Part shown: piece after piece, positions 5,956 to 25,658 of the stretch
Numbering within the stretch: position 1 is the first letter of the stretch
Layout: every line of letters begins with the position of its first letter
NCBI GenBank assembly: GCA_003158475.1
Contig: PMJR01000034.1
Span: 1-33,071 of the forward strand
Direction: 5' to 3'
DNA length: 33,071 bases
Origin: Ignavibacteriota bacterium
GTDB lineage: Bacteria; Bacteroidota; Ignavibacteria; UBA10030; UBA6906
The notes under the pieces: model-generated
The model's database searches: none
Seen by the model: the letters and a program-made list of their open reading frames with translations, nothing else
What the model was told of the DNA's origin: nothing
Program-made: the position numbers and the translations under genes

Positions 5956-6255
5956 ATGATCAAACTCATCGCCCTGTTCCGGAACTCCTCCGAACCCGCA
6001 GAATTCGACAAACACTACTTCGAAGTTCACATCCCCCTGGTCCGCAAATACCCCGGGCTCCGGAAGCTCGAGGTAACGCGCGTGACCGGGGCCCCCATAG
6101 GCGAAGCGAAATTCCACCTCATGGCGGAAATGTATTTCGACACCAAGGATGCGATGGATGCGGCCCTTGCCTCGACCGAAGGGAAGGCCGTCACGCGCGA
6201 TATTATGAGTTTTGCGGCCGATGTCATTACGGTCTTCCACGGCGAAGCCGACTGA
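5956..6255 (+). CDS. EthD-family ferredoxin-like protein
   Basis: This 99-residue protein matches the EthD family, small dimeric alpha-beta barrel proteins. It shows the typical start MIKLIALFRN, the helix segment FDKHYFEVHIPLVRKYPGL with the conserved HxPL region, and the C-terminal strand ADVITVFHGE. EthD proteins often accompany oxygenases and CoA-ester catabolic genes. Some act as accessory factors and some as small enzymes such as cyclases or dehydratases. As first gene after the 5879 promoter and 46 nt before an atypical crotonase, it probably serves the same pathway. No substrate can be read from the sequence. ATG is chosen; no strong Shine-Dalgarno site precedes it. Confidence 0.85.
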   Translation: MIKLIALFRNSSEPAEFDKHYFEVHIPLVRKYPGLRKLEVTRVTGAPIGEAKFHLMAEMYFDTKDAMDAALASTEGKAVTRDIMSFAADVITVFHGEAD

Positions 6256-6301: not shown

Positions 6302-7159
6302 ATGAGCGCCTACAGGGGAAAACCCGCCTCGGAGTTCCGCTTTAGGAACATCAAATACGAAAAAGGGGATTGGCGGGCGACCGTCACGATAAACCGCCCC
6401 GCCGTATACAACTGCCTGGACATCGCGACGCTCCGCGAGTTGGGGGGGGCATTCGAGGACGCCGCATGGGATGACAGGGTCGCCGTCCTTGTGATCACCG
6501 GTGCAGGGAACAGGGCGTTTTGCACAGGGGCGGACATGAAAGAATGGAACAGGGATTTCCTGCGGAAGCCGGGGGATTTCTACAAATGGATGGGCGTCTT
6601 CATCGAAACATTCGACCGGCTGCGCAACCTCGGGAAACCGACGATCGCCCGGCTGAACGGGATGGTGGTGGGGGGCGGGAACGAACTCCAGATGTCGTGC
6701 GATCTCGCCGTCGCCGCGGATGACGTCGTCATCCGGCACGCCGGCACGTCGCGCGGAAGCGTCCCCGCGGCCGGAGCCACGCAATGGCTCCCCCTCATCG
6801 TCGGAGACCGGCGCGCAAGGGAGATCCTGCTCCTGAACGAGGCAATCCCGGCGCGGAAGGCGCTTGCATGGGGTCTGGTAAACCAAGTTGTCCCCCGCAA
6901 AAGGCTCGACCGGGCCGTGGACGCGCTTGCGGAGAAACTTGTTGACAAGCTTCCCGAGTGCACCCGCTACACGAAGCAACAACTGAATTTCTGGCGTGAC
7001 TTCTCCTGGGCGATGACGATAGGTCATGCGCGGGACTGGCTGACCATCCACACGGGCGCAGAGGAGATCGTGGAGGGGATCCGCGCATTCAACGAGAAAC
7101 GGGAGATCGACTACCGGAAACTGAGATCCAGGATGGCCAACGACGACAGGGGGCACTGA
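6302..7159 (+). CDS. Crotonase-fold enzyme, MenB/BadI/Oah-like
   Basis: This 285-residue enoyl-CoA hydratase/isomerase-superfamily protein has the oxyanion-hole segments FCTGADMKEW (about 73-82) and VVGGGNELQMSCDL (about 122-135). The first catalytic-type glutamate is kept (E128). The second, in the GQPEI motif of true hydratases, is replaced by RGSVPAAGATQWLP (about 151-164). That region, and the following RAREILLLNEAIPARKAL, look more like MenB, BadI (2-ketocyclohexanecarboxyl-CoA hydrolase) and Oah/BamA (6-oxocyclohexenecarbonyl-CoA hydrolase), which close or hydrolyse carbon rings. A ring-opening or C-C bond hydrolase is therefore as likely as a hydratase. The start at ATG 6302 has AGGGAC upstream; the frame is open further 5' but overlaps the EthD gene. 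The next gene begins 6 nt after its stop. Confidence 0.8.
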   Translation: MSAYRGKPASEFRFRNIKYEKGDWRATVTINRPAVYNCLDIATLRELGGAFEDAAWDDRVAVLVITGAGNRAFCTGADMKEWNRDFLRKPGDFYKWMGVFIETFDRLRNLGKPTIARLNGMVVGGGNELQMSCDLAVAADDVVIRHAGTSRGSVPAAGATQWLPLIVGDRRAREILLLNEAIPARKALAWGLVNQVVPRKRLDRAVDALAEKLVDKLPECTRYTKQQLNFWRDFSWAMTIGHARDWLTIHTGAEEIVEGIRAFNEKREIDYRKLRSRMANDDRGH

Positions 7160-7165
7160 CGGACC

Positions 7166-9112
7166 ATGACGAGAGTCGCATGCGGCCTTCTGTTCCTCGT
7201 TCCCGCATTCCTGACCGGCTGTTCGGCATCCGGCCCTTCCTTCCAGCTCTGGGAGGAGACCGGGGGGCCGTATGCCCGGAACATCAGCGCCGTCCTCCCG
7301 GACAACAGGATCGCGGGGACCCTTTATGCATCCGCCGGCAGCGGCGAAATCGCCGTCTCGACATCGAACGGGAGATCATGGGCGCATGCGGCCCCGATCC
7401 CGGGAGGTCCGGAGGTCCACCAGCTGATTCAGGACCCGGAGAGTCCCGATCGACTTTTCGCCGCGACCGAGGCCGGAGCATTCGTTTCACCCGACAGGGC
7501 CAGATCGTGGACACCACTGCTGGTGGGCCCGGCCGGGACGGGCGTGCGGGTCATGGCGATAGACCCCTGGTCCCCGTCAACAGTCTATGCGGGGACTGAG
7601 GGGAAAGGCTTCTTCAAATCGTCGGACGGCGGGAGGACGTGGAATGAAATCAACGCTTCTCCGGATCTCCTCCTCTCCGGCGCCGATGTGTATGACATCG
7701 GCATCGATGTCACGAAACCGGACATCGTGTTCGCGGCTGTCTCACAGTACGGCATCATCCGCACCACGGACAGGGGAGCCGGGTGGAAGGGGCTGACGCC
7801 GGAATTCTCCGGGACGGGATCGCGGGCCACACACCTGCTGATCGGAAAAGACGGTCACGGCACACTCCTGTACGGAACCACCTCGGGATCAATCATGAAG
7901 ACGACGAACGGCGGGAGCTCCTGGAGCCCTTCGCGCATAGCGAGGGACTTCGACGGGATCCTCTCCTTTTCCGTTCTCCCGGGCACACCGGACGGCCTGA
8001 TCGCGGGAACGGAGCGGGGGATCATCGTCTCGTCCGACTTCGGCACGAGCTGGGGAGGGACCGGAGGGGAACTGCCGGGGATCCCGACCAGGGTGGCGAT
8101 CGCCGGAGAAGGCTCCCAGGCAACGCTTTTCGCGTACGGGGGGGGGATCGGCCTGCGTGCCTCCGGGGATAACGGGGTGTCGTGGCGGGGGGCGGACCTG
8201 AAACTGGGCGGCTCCACCGTCGACGTACTTGCGATCGACCCGGCAGGGGAACACCTTTTCGCCGCCACGGGAAATGTGTGCATGACATACACGGGAGGGC
8301 CTTCCGGCGCCTGGTCGGACCCGGGTCCCGGCATTACGGGGGGGAACATCCACTCGCTTTCGATCGATCCGTCTGTCCCGGGACTTGTGTATGCCACAAC
8401 TGCGGCCGGCGTGTTCGTCTCGACGGACAATGGCGGGTCGTGGCAGACAACCCCGCGGTCGATGCAAATCTCCCCGTTCCTCTACGAGGCTCATCCCTCC
8501 ATCACAACACGGAGGTTCATGGCGAGCGATCAGGGGATATTCGTTTCGACCGACCGCGGACTGACATGGAATCAGTCGAGGCCGCTCGGCAACCGGTGGG
8601 TCGTCCGCTCACTCACATTCTCCCCGTGGAACGCCGGCACGATCATCGGCGCCACATCCAACGGGGGTGTCATACTCTCACACGACGGCGGGTTCAACTG
8701 GGAGCAGGCGCGTTACGGGATTCCCGGAGACCGGGTTGAATCGGTCGCGCTCGACGAGACCGATCCGGACACCTACTACGCCTATCTGCCCGACGGGAAG
8801 TGTTTCCGTTCACTCAACAAAGGACTCGAATGGAACAGGTATATCCCCCCCTGGAAACCAACAAACAACGTCCGGATCGCCTGCGACAGGCGCGCGACGA
8901 ACAGCGTCGTGGCGTTCGTCGACGGGAGGCATGTGTACTATTCCACTTCCGGCGGCAGAACCTGGATCAAGCTCATCGATGCGGACCTCCACGCCAGCGC
9001 GGTCTCCCTCTGCTGGAACGCGGCCACGATGACGCTGTACGCGGGAGCACGCGACAGCGGCGTGTACAGGCTTCCGCTCGGAAAGAGAATCCGTGAGATT
9101 CTGGGGGAATAA
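7166..9112 (+). CDS. BNR/sortilin-type beta-propeller lipoprotein
   Basis: This 648-residue protein starts with a lipoprotein signal (MTRVACGLLFLVPAFLTGC; lipobox LTGC, lipidated C19), so it should be anchored in the envelope. The remainder is a series of BNR/Asp-box repeats: KSSDGGRTWN, KTTNGGSSWS, SSDFGTSWGG, STDNGGSWQT, STDRGLTWNQ, SHDGGFNWEQ and STSGGRTWIK. They alternate with VYAGT-like strands, as in sortilin/Vps10-like propellers and photosystem assembly factor Ycf48. Such propellers bind proteins or glycans; no catalytic residues are evident. It sits only 6 nt after a cytoplasmic CoA enzyme and 79 nt before another, an unexpected position. It contains a G9 run at 8138-8146. Function is unknown beyond the fold and location. 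Confidence 0.85.
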   Translation: MTRVACGLLFLVPAFLTGCSASGPSFQLWEETGGPYARNISAVLPDNRIAGTLYASAGSGEIAVSTSNGRSWAHAAPIPGGPEVHQLIQDPESPDRLFAATEAGAFVSPDRARSWTPLLVGPAGTGVRVMAIDPWSPSTVYAGTEGKGFFKSSDGGRTWNEINASPDLLLSGADVYDIGIDVTKPDIVFAAVSQYGIIRTTDRGAGWKGLTPEFSGTGSRATHLLIGKDGHGTLLYGTTSGSIMKTTNGGSSWSPSRIARDFDGILSFSVLPGTPDGLIAGTERGIIVSSDFGTSWGGTGGELPGIPTRVAIAGEGSQATLFAYGGGIGLRASGDNGVSWRGADLKLGGSTVDVLAIDPAGEHLFAATGNVCMTYTGGPSGAWSDPGPGITGGNIHSLSIDPSVPGLVYATTAAGVFVSTDNGGSWQTTPRSMQISPFLYEAHPSITTRRFMASDQGIFVSTDRGLTWNQSRPLGNRWVVRSLTFSPWNAGTIIGATSNGGVILSHDGGFNWEQARYGIPGDRVESVALDETDPDTYYAYLPDGKCFRSLNKGLEWNRYIPPWKPTNNVRIACDRRATNSVVAFVDGRHVYYSTSGGRTWIKLIDADLHASAVSLCWNAATMTLYAGARDSGVYRLPLGKRIREILGE

Positions 9113-9191: not shown

Positions 9192-9971
9192 ATGATCATG
9201 GCATCCGACATCGTCACTGTCACGATAGAGCAGGGATACGCGCTCCTGCAGTTGAATCGCCCGGACGTGTTGAATGCGATCTCCCTTCAACTCATGACGG
9301 ACCTCGTCGCCGCACTCGAAGAGTCGGACGGCGACGACGCGGTGAAGTGCATGATCATCACGGGGAACGAAAGGGCATTCGCCGCGGGGGCCGACATCCG
9401 GGAGATGGCGGAAGCGACGGCGACTGAGATGCTCGCGCGCGACCAGTTCGCCCTGTGGGAAAGGATCAGGAAGGTTTCGAAACCGGTCATTGCCGCAGTC
9501 GGAGGGTTCGCCCTCGGGGGGGGATGCGAGCTGGCCATGGCGTGCGACATGATCATCGCCTCCGAGACCGCAAGGTTCGGCCAGCCGGAGATAACGATCG
9601 GAGTGATGCCGGGAGCCGGGGGGACGCAGCGCCTGACGCGTGCCGTGGGGAAAGCGAAGGCGATGGAAATGGTCCTCACCGGGAGGATGATCACCGCCGA
9701 CGAGGCCCTCAGGTGGGGACTTGTCAACAAGGTCGTCCCCGCGGAGTCGCTCCTCGCGGAAGCACGGGCCTGGGCGGCCGAGATTGCCTCTTCCCCCCCC
9801 CTGGCGGTCCGCCTTGCCAAGGAAGCCGTTCTCACGTCGTTCGACACGACGATCGAGGGGGGACTGGCATTCGAACGAAAGAACTTCTACCTCCTGTTCG
9901 CCACCGAGGACCAGAAAGAGGGGATGCGATCGTTCCTGGAGAAAAGGAGGCCCCAGTGGAAAGGACGGTGA
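9192..9971 (+). CDS. paaF: Enoyl-CoA hydratase, PaaF/crotonase type
   Basis: This 259-residue crotonase should add water across the double bond of 2-enoyl-CoA esters; in the phenylacetate pathway PaaF hydrates 2,3-dehydroadipyl-CoA. Both catalytic glutamates of true hydratases are present: E113 in GGGCELAMACDM and E133 in FGQPEITIGVMPGAGG. The oxyanion-hole segment AFAAGADIREM is at about 62-72. The start is ATG 9192 with GGAG 5 nt upstream; the frame is open further 5' without family similarity, and a second ATG two codons on is possible. The 3' end overlaps paaG by 16 nt. The hydratase activity is well supported. The substrate, and hence the symbol, rests on the neighbouring genes. Confidence 0.85.
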   Translation: MIMASDIVTVTIEQGYALLQLNRPDVLNAISLQLMTDLVAALEESDGDDAVKCMIITGNERAFAAGADIREMAEATATEMLARDQFALWERIRKVSKPVIAAVGGFALGGGCELAMACDMIIASETARFGQPEITIGVMPGAGGTQRLTRAVGKAKAMEMVLTGRMITADEALRWGLVNKVVPAESLLAEARAWAAEIASSPPLAVRLAKEAVLTSFDTTIEGGLAFERKNFYLLFATEDQKEGMRSFLEKRRPQWKGR

Positions 9972-10768
9972 GGGAGAGACCCGCCCCTTCATATGCGACA
10001 CTCCTGTGCACGGAGGACGGGGGAGTGCTCACAATCACCCTCAACCGCCCCAAAAGCTATAACGCTTTCAACGAGGCGATGAAAGAGGAACTCAACAGCG
10101 CGCTGCGGGAGGCGTCCCGGGACGTCGCCGTCCGGTGCATCGTCCTGAGGGGTGCGGGGGAAAAAGCATTCTGCTCGGGCCAGGATTTGAAAGAGCACCG
10201 CGGGACGGGGAGGTCGCTGAAGGAATCACTCGAACGATCGTACAATCCACTCATACGGCGGATGCGGGAGATGGAGAAGCCCATCCTCGGGATGATCAAC
10301 GGCGTGGCCGCGGGGGCCGGATGCAGCCTCGCGCTGGCGTGTGATATGCGCATCATGTCCTCCGACGCCACGCTGATCGAGGCGTTCGTGCGAATCGCTC
10401 TCGTGCCGGACTCGGGGTCGCATTGGTTTCTGGCGCGTCTGGTCGGAATGGGACGTGCATTCGAGTACGCCGCAACCGGCAGGGATATCACGGCCGACGA
10501 AGCTGAGCGGGTGGGGCTCGTCAACCGGGTCGTCCCGCCGGAGCAGCTTGAGGCCTCGACGATGGAACTGGCGCGATCGCTGGCCGCCGGTCCCACACGG
10601 ACAATCGGTCTGATCAAAAGGACTCTCAACCGGGCGCTCGTAACTGACCTGAGCGCGCTGCTGGAATACGAGGCGGCAATCCAGGAGATCGCCTCAGCGA
10701 CAGACGACCACCGGGAAGGGGTCGCCGCGTTCATGGAAAAGCGGAAGGCGGTCTTCATTGGTAAGTAG
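9956..10768 (+). CDS. paaG: PaaG-type ring-epoxide/enoyl-CoA isomerase
   Basis: This 270-residue crotonase resembles PaaG, which converts the ring-1,2-epoxide of phenylacetyl-CoA to oxepin-CoA and also shifts double bonds in later intermediates. As in PaaG, the first hydratase glutamate is absent (AGCSLALACD, S124) and an aspartate lies in the second position (ALVPDSGSHWFLARLVG, D152). The flanking text, FVRIAL then GRAFEYAATGRDITADEA, also fits PaaG. The start is GTG 9956, with GGAGG 5 nt before it, inside the end of paaF, implying translational coupling. The stop TAG at 10766 runs directly into the 11-bp G-rich repeats. PaaG-type activity is likely. Whether the real substrate is phenylacetyl-CoA epoxide depends on the oxygenase next door. 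Confidence 0.82.
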   Translation: MERTVRERPAPSYATLLCTEDGGVLTITLNRPKSYNAFNEAMKEELNSALREASRDVAVRCIVLRGAGEKAFCSGQDLKEHRGTGRSLKESLERSYNPLIRRMREMEKPILGMINGVAAGAGCSLALACDMRIMSSDATLIEAFVRIALVPDSGSHWFLARLVGMGRAFEYAATGRDITADEAERVGLVNRVVPPEQLEASTMELARSLAAGPTRTIGLIKRTLNRALVTDLSALLEYEAAIQEIASATDDHREGVAAFMEKRKAVFIGK

Positions 10769-10884: not shown

Positions 10885-11730
10885 ATGCAGACTCCCGCGG
10901 GTGCCACCCGTCCAGCCGCCGAGCGTGAAGCGATCATGCAGGGGAAGCTGTCACGGAAGGAATCGATCGAGAATGTCGATGAGATGAGCGACGAGTACTT
11001 CGATCTGCTGACGAACCTGATGACACAGCAGGCCGACTCGGAACTCGCAGGAGGTTTCGGGTACGTCCCGTGGATCATGAAAGCGCCGACCACGGAGGAG
11101 AAGCTCGTCGTCTCGCAGATCGTGAGGGACGAGGTACGGCACGGCCGCGCCATGTACCGCCTTCTGGAGGATATCGGCGTCCCGGTGGACGACTATGTCG
11201 AGCAGTTCGACTTCACGTACAGGGTCGAAGGAGAGACCGACCTCGGCGCGACCCGCGCAGGGACGGACAAGCGGGTCAATATCTTCTACTACTCGATTGA
11301 CTCCTGGGCGGACTTCGTGATGTTCAACTTCCTCATGGACCGGGGGGCCGGACACCAGCTCGAAGACGTCAAGCATTCCTCGTACGGCCCCTGGCGGCGT
11401 GAGATCGACCGCATATTCAAGGAAGAGCAAACCCATATCGCGCACGGCGACTTCTGGGTGAAACGGCTCGCCCTGGGGAACGAGACCAGGGGGGTGATCC
11501 AGTCGTCGCTCGAGCGCTGGTGGCCCCGCGTGATGGCGATATTCGGAAGGCCCGGGTCGAAGAAGAATGCGCGCTACCGCGCGCTGTCGCTCAAGCTGAG
11601 AGATAATCACCAGGTGCGGCTGGATTTCGAGAAGGAAGTCCGCGAGAAGGCCGAGCAGTGGGGGCTGGTGATCCCCCGCTGGACGCCGGACTGGGAACGG
11701 ATTCCCGACGACGCAGTGATCTCCGGGTAG
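10885..11730 (+). CDS. PaaA-like diiron acyl-CoA oxygenase subunit
   Basis: This 281-residue protein belongs to the PaaA/PaaC ferritin-like family. PaaA is the catalytic subunit of phenylacetyl-CoA epoxidase, which inserts one oxygen atom into the aromatic ring. The diiron ligands are all in place: E53 (ADSELAGG), E83 and H86 (RDEVRHG), D143 (SWADF), and E181 and H184 (KEEQTH). Substrate-side landmarks of PaaA also align, such as APTTEEK, SSYGPW and RWWPRVMAIFG. PaaC lacks the metal ligands, so this is a catalytic rather than structural subunit. It is slightly shorter than E. coli PaaA (about 309). ATG 10885 is preferred because AGAGGAGA precedes it. No PaaB, PaaC or PaaE gene is in the window. 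It could work alone, as BoxB does with its reductase, or with partners elsewhere. Confidence 0.85.
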   Translation: MQTPAGATRPAAEREAIMQGKLSRKESIENVDEMSDEYFDLLTNLMTQQADSELAGGFGYVPWIMKAPTTEEKLVVSQIVRDEVRHGRAMYRLLEDIGVPVDDYVEQFDFTYRVEGETDLGATRAGTDKRVNIFYYSIDSWADFVMFNFLMDRGAGHQLEDVKHSSYGPWRREIDRIFKEEQTHIAHGDFWVKRLALGNETRGVIQSSLERWWPRVMAIFGRPGSKKNARYRALSLKLRDNHQVRLDFEKEVREKAEQWGLVIPRWTPDWERIPDDAVISG

Positions 11731-11737
11731 CCTGCAA

Positions 11738-12589
11738 ATGAAAAAAACCGTCGGCATCATCGGCGCCGGCACCATGGGGGGGGGAATCGCCCAGGTTGCC
11801 GCGCTGGCGGGGTTCGATGTCCTCCTCCATGACGTTTCCGGCGACGCGCTCAAGGCCTCGATGGAGCGGATCAAGGGGGATCTCCGCAAGTCGATGCAGA
11901 CAGGGAGGGCCACCGCCTCCGACGCGACGGGTGCCCTGACCCGCATCCGTCCCCGTCGCGAGTTCAACGACCTGGGAGCCGCCGACGTGGTGATCGAAGC
12001 GGCGGTCGAAGACCTGGAGGTCAAGAAGGAGATATTCCGCGCACTCGACCAGATCGTCGCTCCCCGGGCCATATTGGCCACCAACACCTCTTCCCTCTCC
12101 ATCACATCGATCGGTTCGCTCACGAAGACTCCGGAATCGGTCGTGGGGATGCATTTCTTCAATCCCCCCGCGCAGATGAAGCTCGTCGAGATCGTCAGGG
12201 GGAGCCAGACTTCCGACGAGACCGTGCGCACGGTGTATGAGATGGCGCTTGCGATGGGGAAGACCCCCGTGTTCTGCAGCGACACCCCGGGCTTCATCGT
12301 GAACCGTGTCGCGCGACCGTTTTACGGGGAAGCGCTCCGCCTCCTCGGCGAGGGGACAGCGACAGCCGAACAGATCGACAGGATCGTCAGGCTGTCCGGG
12401 GGGTTCAGGATGGGACCGTTCGAGCTGATGGACATGATCGGGATCGACGTAAACTACGCCGTGACGAAATCCGTTTACGAGCAGTTCTTCCATGAGCCCC
12501 GCTTCCGTCCACACCCGATACAGCGGCGCATGGTGGAAGCCGGAACGCTGGGCCGGAAGACAGGTCTGGGCTTCTACCGGTATGAATAG
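11738..12589 (+). CDS. paaH: 3-hydroxyacyl-CoA dehydrogenase (PaaH/Hbd type)
   Basis: This 283-residue enzyme oxidises 3-hydroxyacyl-CoA with NAD; PaaH does so on 3-hydroxyadipyl-CoA. The N-terminal Rossmann motif is GIIGAGTMGGGIAQ (glycines 9, 11, 14). The catalytic set is complete: S118/S119 (TNTSS), H139 and E151 (GMHFFNPPAQMKLVEI) and N189 (DTPGFIVNR). The helical C-terminal domain ends in the standard GRKTGLGFYRYE. The length equals that of single-domain bacterial enzymes. It starts 7 nt after the PaaA-like gene, with no strong ribosome binding site, and overlaps the next gene by 8 nt. A G9 run at 11776-11784 encodes part of the NAD-binding loop. The enzyme class is secure; the assignment to an adipyl-type substrate rests on the neighbours. 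Confidence 0.88.
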   Translation: MKKTVGIIGAGTMGGGIAQVAALAGFDVLLHDVSGDALKASMERIKGDLRKSMQTGRATASDATGALTRIRPRREFNDLGAADVVIEAAVEDLEVKKEIFRALDQIVAPRAILATNTSSLSITSIGSLTKTPESVVGMHFFNPPAQMKLVEIVRGSQTSDETVRTVYEMALAMGKTPVFCSDTPGFIVNRVARPFYGEALRLLGEGTATAEQIDRIVRLSGGFRMGPFELMDMIGIDVNYAVTKSVYEQFFHEPRFRPHPIQRRMVEAGTLGRKTGLGFYRYE

Positions 12590-13391
12590 GCCCCGGGACA
12601 CAGAGGCGAAGCGGTGCGTCTTCATCGCGGGGGAGTCGCCGCTCGCGGAAGAATACGCCTCGGCCTGCGTCGGGGCCGGGATGGAAGTGGCGGTCAGGTT
12701 CAATGCCGGGAGCGGAGGCAAGCTCCCCGCAGGTGCAGTGCGAAGAGCCCGCGCGGGAAAGAAGGACACGCTCGGAATCGAACTGACGAACACCTCGCGC
12801 GAGACAAAGCGCAAAAACCTCGCCGACATGGACCGGGCGCTCCCGTCCGGTACCCCGATTCTGTCGGCGTCCGCCGCAACCACGGTGGCGGAGCAGTCGG
12901 CATGGGTCCGGGCACCGGAACGGCTCATCGGGATAGCCGCCCTCCCCTCCCTTCTGCAGGGGACGCTTGTCGAGATCGCCCCCTCCCTCCCGGCCGGACG
13001 GCAGGCAATCGAGGCGTCGCAGAGATTCTTCAGGGAGCTGGGGAAGGAGACCTCCGTCGTTCAGGATTCTCCCGGCATGGTCCTCCCGCGCATACTCTGC
13101 ATGCTTGTCAACGAAGCATCGTTCGCGCTCGGTGAAGGGATAGCCCGGCGGGGGGACATCGACACCGCCATGACGCTGGGAACGAACTATCCGCTCGGCC
13201 CTCTTGCATGGGGGATGAAGATCGGATTGGAACAGGTTCGCGCGGTTCTCGAGGGATTGCGCCGCGAATTCGGAGAGGAGCGCTACCGCACAGCCCCGCT
13301 CCTGTCAAGGGGAACACTGGAAGGTTCGGCCGAACGATCAGCCGGCGCCCCGCCCACGCACTCTCAAAAACAACGAGGCAATCGACCGTGA
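12582..13391 (+). CDS. Degenerate 3-hydroxyacyl-CoA dehydrogenase paralogue
   Basis: This 269-residue protein aligns with the preceding dehydrogenase along its length but has lost its key residues. The glycine-rich NAD loop is replaced by VFIAGESPLAEEY. The catalytic histidine becomes A119 (GIAALPSLLQGTLVEI), and the substrate-binding asparagine becomes P169 (DSPGMVLPR); only the partner glutamate (E131) remains. The C-terminal domain keeps NEASFALGEGIA and DIDTAMTLGTNYPLGPL, but the usual GRKTGxGFY ending is missing and a polar tail follows. The open frame is intact over 810 bp, so this looks like a maintained pseudoenzyme rather than decay. The start ATG lies inside the end of the active gene (8-nt overlap), suggesting coupled synthesis and perhaps a heterodimer. 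The function is inferred, not known. Confidence 0.78.
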   Translation: MNRPRDTEAKRCVFIAGESPLAEEYASACVGAGMEVAVRFNAGSGGKLPAGAVRRARAGKKDTLGIELTNTSRETKRKNLADMDRALPSGTPILSASAATTVAEQSAWVRAPERLIGIAALPSLLQGTLVEIAPSLPAGRQAIEASQRFFRELGKETSVVQDSPGMVLPRILCMLVNEASFALGEGIARRGDIDTAMTLGTNYPLGPLAWGMKIGLEQVRAVLEGLRREFGEERYRTAPLLSRGTLEGSAERSAGAPPTHSQKQRGNRP

Positions 13392-14101
13392 CTACCGCAC
13401 GTGGTATGATGACCACACTTCTTGCCCTGCTCCTCTCCGCCTCTGCAGGATCTCAAGTCAAGCCTCTGGCGAAACTTGTCGTTCTGGAAGGGACCCACTT
13501 CGACTTCGGGAAGATATACCGCGGCTCCGTGATGGACCGGAAACTCACGCTGAAAAACGCCGGAACAGACACACTCGTCATGGGAACCATCGGCGTCTCG
13601 TGCGGCTGTACCGGTGCGATGGTCACCGCCGAAAGGATCGCCCCGGGCGGGACCGGGTTCGTCCGGATCACGTTCAATTCAAAGAATTTCTCGGGACCCG
13701 TCCACAAGACGGTGACGCTCAATTCAAACGGCGACAGCCTCGGGTACACGATCATCGAGTTCACGGCATCCGTGATCGATGAAATAGGATTGAACCCGCA
13801 GTCGATCATCGTGCCGGGGGCAGAAGTGAACAAGACGAGCACCGTCGTTCTCACCGTCACCAACAACGGCATGACACCCCTCTCCCTCACCGGGTTCCGC
13901 ACGCAGCTGAAAGGACTCGTTCTGAAACTCCCGCCGGATCCCATCCCCCCCGGAGCCACGGGAGAAATACATGCCGAGTTCACGCCGGACGCACCCTCAC
14001 CCATGCTCACCGAAGGCGTCTTCGTGACAACAAACAACATGAGGCAGCCCGAGGTGTACCTCCAGGTATACGGGGGCGTACGGCAAGCCAAATCTCCGTA
14101 G
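13388..14101 (+). CDS. Secreted DUF1573 protein
   Basis: This 237-residue protein begins with a probable signal peptide: an N-terminal Arg, then MMTTLLALLLSASAGS. The mature part has the DUF1573 signature HFDFGKIYRGSVMDRKLTLKN, cut here to GKIYRGSVMDR, followed by VSCGCTGAM and IAPGGTGFVRITF. A second beta-sandwich, starting near IGLNPQSIIVPG and containing VVLTVTNNGMTPL, gives two immunoglobulin-like (ASH/MSP-like) domains. DUF1573 proteins are common in Bacteroidetes and relatives; their role is unknown. GTG 13388 overlaps the stop of the preceding gene (GTGA), with GAGG upstream. ATG 13406 is an alternative start. It sits between a dehydrogenase-like gene and a thiolase, unusual for an exported protein. 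Confidence 0.82.
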   Translation: MTTARGMMTTLLALLLSASAGSQVKPLAKLVVLEGTHFDFGKIYRGSVMDRKLTLKNAGTDTLVMGTIGVSCGCTGAMVTAERIAPGGTGFVRITFNSKNFSGPVHKTVTLNSNGDSLGYTIIEFTASVIDEIGLNPQSIIVPGAEVNKTSTVVLTVTNNGMTPLSLTGFRTQLKGLVLKLPPDPIPPGATGEIHAEFTPDAPSPMLTEGVFVTTNNMRQPEVYLQVYGGVRQAKSP

Positions 14102-14113
14102 ACGGAGCGGATC

Positions 14114-15328
14114 ATGCCCGATCACCCGAACGCGGTCGTCGTCAGCGCACTCCGGACTCCCGTCGGCAGATACGGGGGGATTCTCCGCGACATGCGGCCC
14201 GACGACCTCGGCGCCTCTGTCATCGAAGCTCTCGTCCGAACGGCACGCCTGGATCCCGCCACCATCGACGACGTGATCTGGGGGTGTGCGAACCAGGCAG
14301 GCGAAGACAGCCGGAATGTCGGGAGAATGAGCGCTTTGCTGGCGGGGCTCCCGTTCTCAGTTCCCGGGACTACCGTGAACCGGCTGTGCGGCTCGAGCCT
14401 CGAAGCGGTTATTCAGGCGGCCAGGGCTGTCCGGACGGGCGACGCGGAGACGGTGATCGCCGGCGGCGCCGAAAGCATGAGCCGCGCCCCCTACGCGGTG
14501 GCGAAACGCCACGGCGGAGGGCTCGGCAACATGACCGCGTTCGATACCGCGCTCGGGTGGCGGTTCCCGAACCCGCGCATGAAGGAGTTGTTCCCCCTGG
14601 AGAGCATGGGGGAGACCGCGGAAAACGTTGCAGAGAGGTTCGGAATCACCCGGGAGGAACAGGACCGCTTTGCCTACGAGAGCCACATGAAAGCCGTCCA
14701 TGCGCAGAGGTCGGGGGTATTCGAAAACGAAATCGTCCCGCTCGAAGCACCGGCCGGGAGGGGCAAATCGCTCCGCGTGACTCGAGACGAGGGACCCCGA
14801 CCGGAGACGTCGGTCGAGAAGCTGGCTGCGCTCCCTCCCGTGTTCCGCGAAGGGGGGACGGTGACGGCGGGAAACTCCTCGGCGCTGAACGACGGCGCCT
14901 CAGGGGTGCTCATCATGAACGAAGCGCGGGCGCGGAGCGCAGGTCTCACCCCGCTGGCCCGCATCGTTTCCTCGGGGGTGGCCGGAGTCGATCCACGCTT
15001 CATGGGAATGGGCCCCGTCCCGGCCACGCAGGCCGCGCTCCGCAAAGCGGGACTCTCGATGGACGACATCGGGTTGATGGAGCTGAACGAAGCATTCGCC
15101 TCACAGTCAATCGCGGTCATGCGGGAACTCCGGGTGCGGCCGGACCGCGTCAATCCGGAGGGGGGGGCCATTGCACTCGGACATCCCCTGGGGTGCAGCG
15201 GGACGAGAATCCTGACAACCCTGTTAAACTCCATGCACCGCCGGCGTGTCCAATGGGGAATAGCAACCATGTGTATCGGGGTGGGGCAGGGAATCTCCGT
15301 CATCGTCGAAAACCAATCAGCCCTCTGA
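14114..15328 (+). CDS. paaJ: 3-oxoadipyl-CoA/acyl-CoA thiolase (PaaJ/PcaF type)
   Basis: This 404-residue thiolase II-type enzyme cleaves 3-oxoacyl-CoA with CoA. The active-site residues are C92 (NRLCGSSLEAV), H357 (GHPLGCSGTR) and C387 (MCIGVGQG). The segment FDTALGWRFPNPRMK, followed by MGETAENVAERFGI, closely follows the DTTIGWRFxNP-(x)-METAENVAE signature of beta-ketoadipyl-CoA thiolases (PcaF, PaaJ). That favours 3-oxoadipyl-CoA as substrate and fits the neighbouring hydratase and dehydrogenase, which would make it from dehydroadipyl-CoA. The ATG has GGAG about 7 nt upstream and lies 12 nt after the DUF1573 gene. The thiolase call is very secure; the substrate specificity is likely. Confidence 0.88.
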   Translation: MPDHPNAVVVSALRTPVGRYGGILRDMRPDDLGASVIEALVRTARLDPATIDDVIWGCANQAGEDSRNVGRMSALLAGLPFSVPGTTVNRLCGSSLEAVIQAARAVRTGDAETVIAGGAESMSRAPYAVAKRHGGGLGNMTAFDTALGWRFPNPRMKELFPLESMGETAENVAERFGITREEQDRFAYESHMKAVHAQRSGVFENEIVPLEAPAGRGKSLRVTRDEGPRPETSVEKLAALPPVFREGGTVTAGNSSALNDGASGVLIMNEARARSAGLTPLARIVSSGVAGVDPRFMGMGPVPATQAALRKAGLSMDDIGLMELNEAFASQSIAVMRELRVRPDRVNPEGGAIALGHPLGCSGTRILTTLLNSMHRRRVQWGIATMCIGVGQGISVIVENQSAL

Positions 15329-24155: not shown

Positions 24156-25658
24156 GTGAGACTGTACCAGCTCTTTATCAACGATCAGTTCGTCGACGGG
24201 GAGGAGAAGCGGACGTTTACTTCGCTCAACCCGTTCACCGGCGAAACACTTGCCACGTGCGCCCGGGCGGGAGCCGCCGACGCCCGCCTGGCCGTCCGGG
24301 CTGCACGTTCCGCATTCGATTCGGGGCCCTGGCCCCGGATGAAGCGGGAGGAGCGCTCCGCGTACCTGAAGAAGCTCTCCGACGCACTCAACGCGAACGC
24401 GCCACGGTTTGTCGAACTCGAGGTCGCCGATTCCGGTTCGACGCTCAAGAAGGCGAAAGAGGACATCTACCTGAGCGCCCGGGCGCTCGCGAGCTACGCG
24501 AAGTTCGCTCTCCTCGATCTGACGGAACCGCTTGACACGGTTTCACGCCCGGGGATCAGCACGAACATCCTCCTCCGGGAGCCGGTGGGAGTGGTGGCCG
24601 CGATCATCCCCTGGAACTTCCCTCTGAAGATGGCGGTATGGAAGCTCGGCCCTGCGCTCGCAGCCGGAAACACGCTGGTCCTCAAGCCCTCGGAGGAGAC
24701 TCCCGTCACGGCAATGGAACTCGCCCGGCTCATACACGACGCCGGATTTCCGCCGGGCGTTGTAAACGTTATTACGGGATTCGGTGAGGACGCAGGCGCG
24801 GAGCTTTGCCGCAACCCGCTCGTCGACAAAGTGGCCTTCACCGGGTCGACGGATGTGGGGAGACAGGTGATGCAGGGTGCGGCCGCGACGCTCAAGAACA
24901 TCACGCTGGAGTGCGGAGGCAAGTCGGCCAACATCGTGCTTGACGATGCTGACATCGAACTTGCAGTCGACGGGGCCCTGTATGCGGCGTTTTACCACCA
25001 GGGCCAGTGTTGCGAGGCGGGGAGCAGGCTCTTCCTCCCCGAACGCATCGCCGATGAATTCGTCGAACGGCTGAGGGGGGGCGCCCGCGCCATGAAGATG
25101 GGGGACCCGATGAATGCGCTGACCGATGTCGGGCCTCTCATTTCCCGCCGCCAGCAGGAGTCCGTCCTCGGATACATCGCGCAGGGAAAGAGAGACGGGG
25201 GCGTGCTCGCCACGGGAGGAGGCATCCCGAACTAGTCTTCATGCGCGGGCGGGTTCTTCGTGGAACCGACCATCTTCGACAGGGTGGAGAATTCCTGGAC
25301 GATCGCCAGGGAAGAGATATTCGGGCCCGTCCTTTCCGTTCTGCGGTACAAGGAGACGGACGATGCGGTCCGTATGGCGAACGATTCCGTCTACGGGCTG
25401 GGAGGGGGAGTCTGGTCGAAGGATCCGGAACGGGCGATGGGTATCGCCCGTTCGCTCCGCGCCGGCACGATATGGATCAACGAATGGCATCTCCTCAACG
25501 AACGTGCTCCCTTCGGCGGGTACAAGCAAAGCGGGATCGGAAGGGAATTCGGGCAGGACGGCCTGAAGGAATACACCGAATCGAAACATATCCACGTTGA
25601 TCAGGCGGGCTCGCGCGACAAGAAACCCTGGTACGACGTCGTCGTGCCCAGACATTGA
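24156..25658 (+). pseudogene. NAD(P) aldehyde dehydrogenase with an in-frame TAG
   Basis: A complete aldehyde dehydrogenase frame of 501 codons is interrupted by one TAG (25233-25235, codon 360). The frame is unchanged on both sides, so this is a nonsense codon, not a frameshift. The first part has the cofactor and catalytic residues: IIPWNFPLKMAVWK, K178 (LVLKPSEETP), FTGSTDVG, E252 (LECGGKS) and C286 (GQCCEAGSR). The second part has [21 protein letters not shown] and [11 protein letters not shown], needed for cofactor and subunit contacts. The length with the stop read through is normal for the family (about 500). Other genes here end in TAG, so the code is standard. It could be a recent pseudogene, read-through or a base error; a 359-residue product would probably be inactive. 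The substrate is unknown. The start is GTG 24156. Confidence 0.85.

Follow-up and report, generated by a model that had tools for sequence, protein, structure and literature searches.

A lone PaaA-type diiron protein belongs to a new PF05138 clade and is probably a reduced phenylacetyl-CoA epoxidase

We identify a lone PaaA-type diiron protein, encoded in a 33,071-nucleotide stretch of an Ignavibacteriota draft genome (hereafter the window), as a member of a new clade of the PF05138 family that, judged from sequence, is probably a reduced phenylacetyl-CoA epoxidase (probability roughly 0.6). Its conserved diiron ligands, predicted fold, separate position in the family tree, lack of PaaB and PaaC and conserved gene clusters are shown at this level, and on our best reading the protein would be a single-subunit-type phenylacetyl-CoA epoxidase that replaces PaaABC. 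The window contains the following features:

5956..6252, + strand: EthD-family small protein (TIGR02118, 90 bits), upstream of the crotonases
6302..7159, + strand: further crotonase, BadI/MenB/DpgD-like; start picked among in-frame starts
9192..9971, + strand: PaaF-like crotonase, 49% identical to E. coli PaaF; ATG start chosen by us
9956..10768, + strand: PaaG-like crotonase, candidate epoxide isomerase; top equivalog PaaG (242 bits), 41% identical to E. coli PaaG; GTG start, our choice
10885..11730, + strand: lone PaaA-like diiron protein gene, 281 aa
11738..12589, + strand: PaaH-like 3-hydroxyacyl-CoA dehydrogenase with NAD and C-terminal domains, 50% identical to E. coli PaaH
12582..13391, + strand: additional PaaH-like protein that aligns with the C-terminal half of fused PaaH; its gene overlaps the preceding PaaH-like gene
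13388..14101, + strand: DUF1573 protein, between the PaaH-like and PaaJ-like genes
14114..15328, + strand: PaaJ/PcaF-like thiolase, 53% identical to E. coli PaaJ
24156..25655, + strand: aldehyde dehydrogenase, candidate for the PaaZ-ALDH role, of a type found inside the cluster in relatives

Profile and BLAST matches between 9192 and 15328 agree with the original prediction of PaaG-, PaaH-, PaaJ- and PaaF-like neighbors, and its observation that no other epoxidase subunit lies nearby was reproduced, with BLAST searches using E. coli proteins detecting no PaaB-, PaaC-, PaaD- or PaaE-like ORF within about 11 kb of the lone gene. The window aldehyde dehydrogenase is broken by an in-frame TAG at 25233 that may reflect either a genuine mutation or an error in the assembly; its homologs are intact on the matching contigs of relatives. 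A pseudouridine synthase (c17), an M1 peptidase (c26), a propeller protein (7166-9112) and the DUF1573 protein, which probably lies outside the pathway, were judged bystanders.

The lone gene is preceded by an AGGAG motif, and by profile score its product is a clear PF05138 member and a clear outlier. The protein scores 130.6 bits against Pfam PF05138 PaaA_PaaC (gathering score 28.5) and 119.4 bits against the NCBIfam PaaA equivalog TIGR02156, below the curated cut-off of 280, with homologs from Tumebacillus and another Ignavibacteria genome at 128 and 106 bits. The NCBIfam PaaC profile yields 54.8 bits (cut-off 133), and a score of 29.4 bits against the BoxB profile TIGR03225 (curated cut-off 499) rules out assignment as BoxB. 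A scan of genome contigs recovered 46 relatives with identities of 51-95%, distributed over roughly six phyla or more and spanning Ignavibacteria, Kryptoniota, Tumebacillus and other Bacillota, NC10, Rokubacteria, Elusimicrobia and Calditrichota. Comparison with two congeners, including G001, gave a dN/dS of 0.045-0.059, indicative of strong purifying selection within the genus, and this constraint together with the spread of relatives argues that the ORF is not a chance one.

To locate active-site residues we aligned the lone proteins with E. coli PaaA (from NC_000913) and with 19 PaaA and 16 PaaC sequences from related genomes. The diiron ligands of the window protein are E53, E83, H86, D152, E181 and H184, each invariant in 47 of 47 family members. 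The original prediction was correct that all six PaaA ligands are present but had named D143, an invariant aspartic acid in the motif SWADF, in place of D152, the equivalent of PaaA D126. Residue F134, also invariant (47/47), corresponds to PaaA Phe108, the residue that orients the substrate's phenyl ring (PMC4498308). The PaaA lysine bridge Lys68/Glu49, proposed as an electron relay from PaaE (PMC4498308, PMC7497051), retains its Lys and Glu in all 19 canonical PaaA sequences and is replaced by I79/Y60 in the window protein, with Ile and Tyr in all 47 members; the missing relay counts against the epoxidase reading.

An AlphaFold2 model of the window protein (pLDDT 92.6, from a 43-sequence alignment) most closely matches PaaA chains in VIA-align (Z 28, rmsd about 2.2 Å over 250 residues), followed by SSO1313 (Z 25.6), PaaC (24.2), BoxB (22.6) and aldehyde deformylating oxygenases (19). 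Model residues 12-281 match PaaA residues 1-270, so that the last ~40 residues of PaaA are missing. The window protein shares with E. coli PaaA (PDB 3PW1, 4IIT) its fold, six ligands, phenyl-orienting Phe and surrounding PaaG/F/H/J-like genes, but is only about 29% identical, lies in its own clade, occurs without PaaB and PaaC, lacks the lysine bridge and the C-terminal segment, and has extra residues ahead of the PaaA K103 region. In a maximum-likelihood tree, the lone proteins form one group (support 97/99) apart from PaaA (100/100) and PaaC (100/100), with mean identities of 29% and 22% to the two subunits. PaaC has the PaaA-paralog fold and, as in the lone proteins, Ile at the K68 position, but it forms a separate clade, has Val or Met at the F108 position and, in E. 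coli and many other cases, has lost part of its ligand set. The Sulfolobus solfataricus protein SSO1313, whose structure (PDB 4MUD) was determined for the single protein, has a PF05138-like fold at 24% identity, is shorter (235 aa) and occupies a long branch of unstable tree position. The benzoyl-CoA 2,3-epoxidase BoxB (PDB 3PER, 3PM5) is monomeric, does not need a PaaC-like subunit (PMC4498308) and has a similar core fold (Z about 22), and would on the proposed reading be a fellow diiron aryl-CoA epoxidase; unlike the 281-aa window protein, it is about 475 aa long. An earlier tree placed both BoxB and 4MUD on long branches and was not used for placing them.

Whole-genome searches of the window genome, a 3.75 Mb draft of 153 contigs with 97.85% completeness, found exactly one PF05138 gene, no match to PaaB, no PaaC and no PaaE above cut-off, and a normal paaABCE operon elsewhere in the genome, which the original prediction had named among the observations that would speak against it, was not found. 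No PaaZ equivalog scored above cut-off, and the only matches were ordinary aldehyde dehydrogenases and hydratase fragments. The draft state of the assembly would allow for paaBC genes that are present in the organism and missing from the MAG, but this explanation is extremely improbable given the high completeness, the same pattern in 23 other genomes and the placement of the window protein in a different clade from PaaA. Of 26 genomes carrying the lone family, 24 have neither PaaB nor a canonical PaaA/PaaC pair, and because these include the complete chromosome of Tumebacillus avium, draft assembly is not the reason for the missing partners. The two exceptions are Bacillota MAGs with both lone and canonical types.

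The two types are likewise separated in broader genome sets. Across 60 relatives, window genome included, eight have a lone copy and the remaining carriers are canonical, with no overlap. Among 392 Bacteroidota genomes, 134 have two PF05138 copies at canonical-level best scores, five have one copy (four lone-type by score and one sub-threshold hit), and none has both the lone type and a PaaA+PaaC pair; within the Tumebacillus order, seven of 14 genomes are canonical, four are lone and none is both. Plasmids carried no lone-PaaA members, only canonical PaaA at about 30% identity. Two further arrangements of PF05138 genes were observed. In two genomes from the Tumebacillus order, a further PF05138 pair, diverged and scoring about 190-206 and 37-69 bits, adjoins canonical PaaA/PaaC (G455:C95:15556-17602 and G458:C1:3240190-3242235), and the Rokubacteria genome G076, which carries lone locus L036, has an expansion of six PF05138 genes, most at 45-110 bits.

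PaaA alone is reported insoluble in known systems, where paaB and paaC knockouts block the pathway (PMC4498308), and loss of both subunits would therefore require compensation, a further point against the epoxidase reading. In a 2009 survey of 25 genomes, paaA, B, C and D invariably shared one operon (PMC2653477). One improbable alternative is a multicomponent epoxidase whose PaaC- and PaaB-like partners have diverged past recognition, and two small proteins are candidates for such a partner. In 25 of 47 loci, a small protein of 77-96 aa that carries an invariant FCxGC motif is encoded close to the lone gene, which it follows immediately in Tumebacillus and several Bacillota, and an EthD-family gene is common to the Ignavibacteria and Tumebacillus clusters, directly preceding PaaG in the latter. 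Neither is universal, however, as the EthD-family gene occurs in only 5 of 47 loci and the Ignavibacteria and Kryptoniota genomes that were tested yielded no CxGC protein, and most genomes lack a second PF05138 copy of comparable score. We therefore rejected the CxGC protein as a universal partner and conclude that it is not generally required. The CxGC protein, whose carriers include Bacillota, Elusimicrobia, NC10 and Calditrichota (for example L047:10814-11101, L022:10759-11022 and L037:5742-6008), weakly matches ScdA_N, DUF1858 and the hybrid-cluster-associated redox-disulfide domain rather than PaaB, and its model (pLDDT 83) resembles the small solved proteins 2k53 and 2k5e (TM 0.70-0.75; Foldseek E > 0.1). 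A role in iron loading, repair or electron transfer would be a guess.

Within about 11 kb of the lone gene, best matches to E. coli Paa proteins include PaaG in 30 of 47 loci, PaaH in 30, PaaF in 26 and PaaJ in 15, with an aldehyde dehydrogenase in 18 and PaaB, PaaC, PaaD or PaaE in none; contig ends cut many loci, making these counts lower bounds. PaaG/F/H/J-like neighbors, often with an aldehyde dehydrogenase, recur in Ignavibacteria, Kryptoniota, Tumebacillus, NC10 and Elusimicrobia, and no PaaG or PaaH was found near the lone gene at loci L016, L019, L020, L021, L026, L032 and L046. PaaX and/or PaaK-type genes occur in the clusters of four genomes: Tumebacillus lacus encodes a PaaX at 267.7 bits, above the curated cut-off of 264.55; two NC10 clusters combine a PaaX just under that cut-off (254 bits) with PaaK-type ligases at 590-600 bits (cut-off 646); and one Rokubacteria lone gene sits after a PaaK-type ligase at 575 bits. 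In Tumebacillus, the cluster extends into genes for a ScyB-family amino-acid dehydrogenase and for E1, E2 and E3 of a 2-oxoacid dehydrogenase, which suggests a route from an aromatic amino acid through aryl-pyruvate to aryl-acetyl-CoA, and E1-E3 are also found near the lone gene in several Elusimicrobia and Bacillota. Jointly, the PaaX, PaaK-type and dehydrogenase genes point to phenylacetyl-CoA, and no single one of them proves it.

The original prediction had also allowed for a different CoA ester, which we consider less likely. The same chemistry on another aryl-CoA, such as 4-hydroxyphenylacetyl-CoA or indoleacetyl-CoA derived from tyrosine or tryptophan, would fit the low identity to PaaA, the tested Paa-like neighbors that all score under their equivalog cut-offs with the exception of one PaaX, and the amino-acid dehydrogenase of the Tumebacillus cluster, which is nearest to the tryptophan dehydrogenase ScyB in NCBIfam, although well under cut-off. 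We regard this as unlikely in view of the PaaX and PaaK-type genes, the invariant F108 equivalent and lower-pathway genes that fit those handling a C8/C6 dicarboxylic product.

Among congeners of the window genome, the block is intact in G002 at 85% identity; it is partly lost in G001, where the lone gene persists and PaaF/G, PaaH and PaaJ are gone from the locus (G001:C24:35697-37458), and wholly lost, lone gene included, in G003 (85% complete; G003:C237:8274-9791). The pathway may be under loss in the window lineage, or the protein may be useful without its neighbors. Retention of the isolated gene in G001 counts against the epoxidase reading, as do the in-frame stop in the window aldehyde dehydrogenase and the relatives with no PaaG or PaaH nearby. 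Together with the lost lysine bridge, the G001 locus would suit a non-oxygenase diiron protein, for example a ligand-binding oxidase, deoxygenase or sensor, that lies among beta-oxidation genes by happenstance, but the invariance of the ligands across six or more phyla, the strength of purifying selection and the cluster composition make such a role very improbable.

The proposal of a minimal acyl-CoA epoxidase without PaaB and PaaC gains support from the genome-wide absence of these partners, the separate clade, near-complete mutual exclusion with the canonical pair and conserved paa-type clusters, some of which contain PaaX or PaaK. Its description as self-sufficient went too far, since the lone protein has no reductase domain and would need an outside electron donor. 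Neither candidate donor matched above cut-off in the genomes tested, with BoxA giving no match above 36 bits (cut-off 459), and this counts against the epoxidase reading; the missing PaaE says little and is not distinctive, since no PaaE match above cut-off was obtained either in four related genomes that have canonical PaaABC.

For the reduced phenylacetyl-CoA epoxidase, we infer the oxygenase activity, substrate, quaternary structure and electron donor as follows. The lone protein, probably a homo-oligomer, would act as the oxygenase and, with O2 and with electrons supplied by an unlinked donor, form ring-1,2-epoxyphenylacetyl-CoA, with PaaC and PaaB dispensable. The PaaG-like crotonase would convert the epoxide to the oxepin, whose opening and oxidation would fall to a crotonase and an aldehyde dehydrogenase, and the PaaF/H/J-like enzymes would complete breakdown through beta-oxidation. 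Phenylacetyl-CoA would be supplied by PaaK in some lineages; in others it would derive from an aromatic amino acid via a 2-oxoacid dehydrogenase complex. We judge it somewhat short of an even chance that the clade is, in full, a widespread third branch of the PaaA/PaaC family that acts as a PaaB/PaaC-independent phenylacetyl-CoA epoxidase, uses another electron route with no lysine bridge and no PaaE, has the CxGC protein as a redox or iron-handling helper in some lineages and is linked to aromatic amino-acid catabolism.

We found no prior description of the lone clade in the literature searched, itself only part of the literature. The current view of phenylacetate breakdown, in which the PaaA-containing enzyme begins the attack on the aromatic ring, treats PaaB and PaaC as indispensable, and PaaA and PaaC are promoted as genomic markers of the pathway, with a 2026 survey of 6,536 genomes taking PaaK as its starting point and PaaA+PaaC as markers (PMC13186573). 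Because most lone-gene clusters lack PaaK and none has PaaC, that survey would tend to miss them. If the epoxidase reading is true, a PaaA-type clade would replace the PaaABC core in several phyla along a route that PaaA+PaaC marker surveys miss, and would provide a compact system in which to study the purpose of PaaB and PaaC and whether electron transfer needs the lysine bridge.
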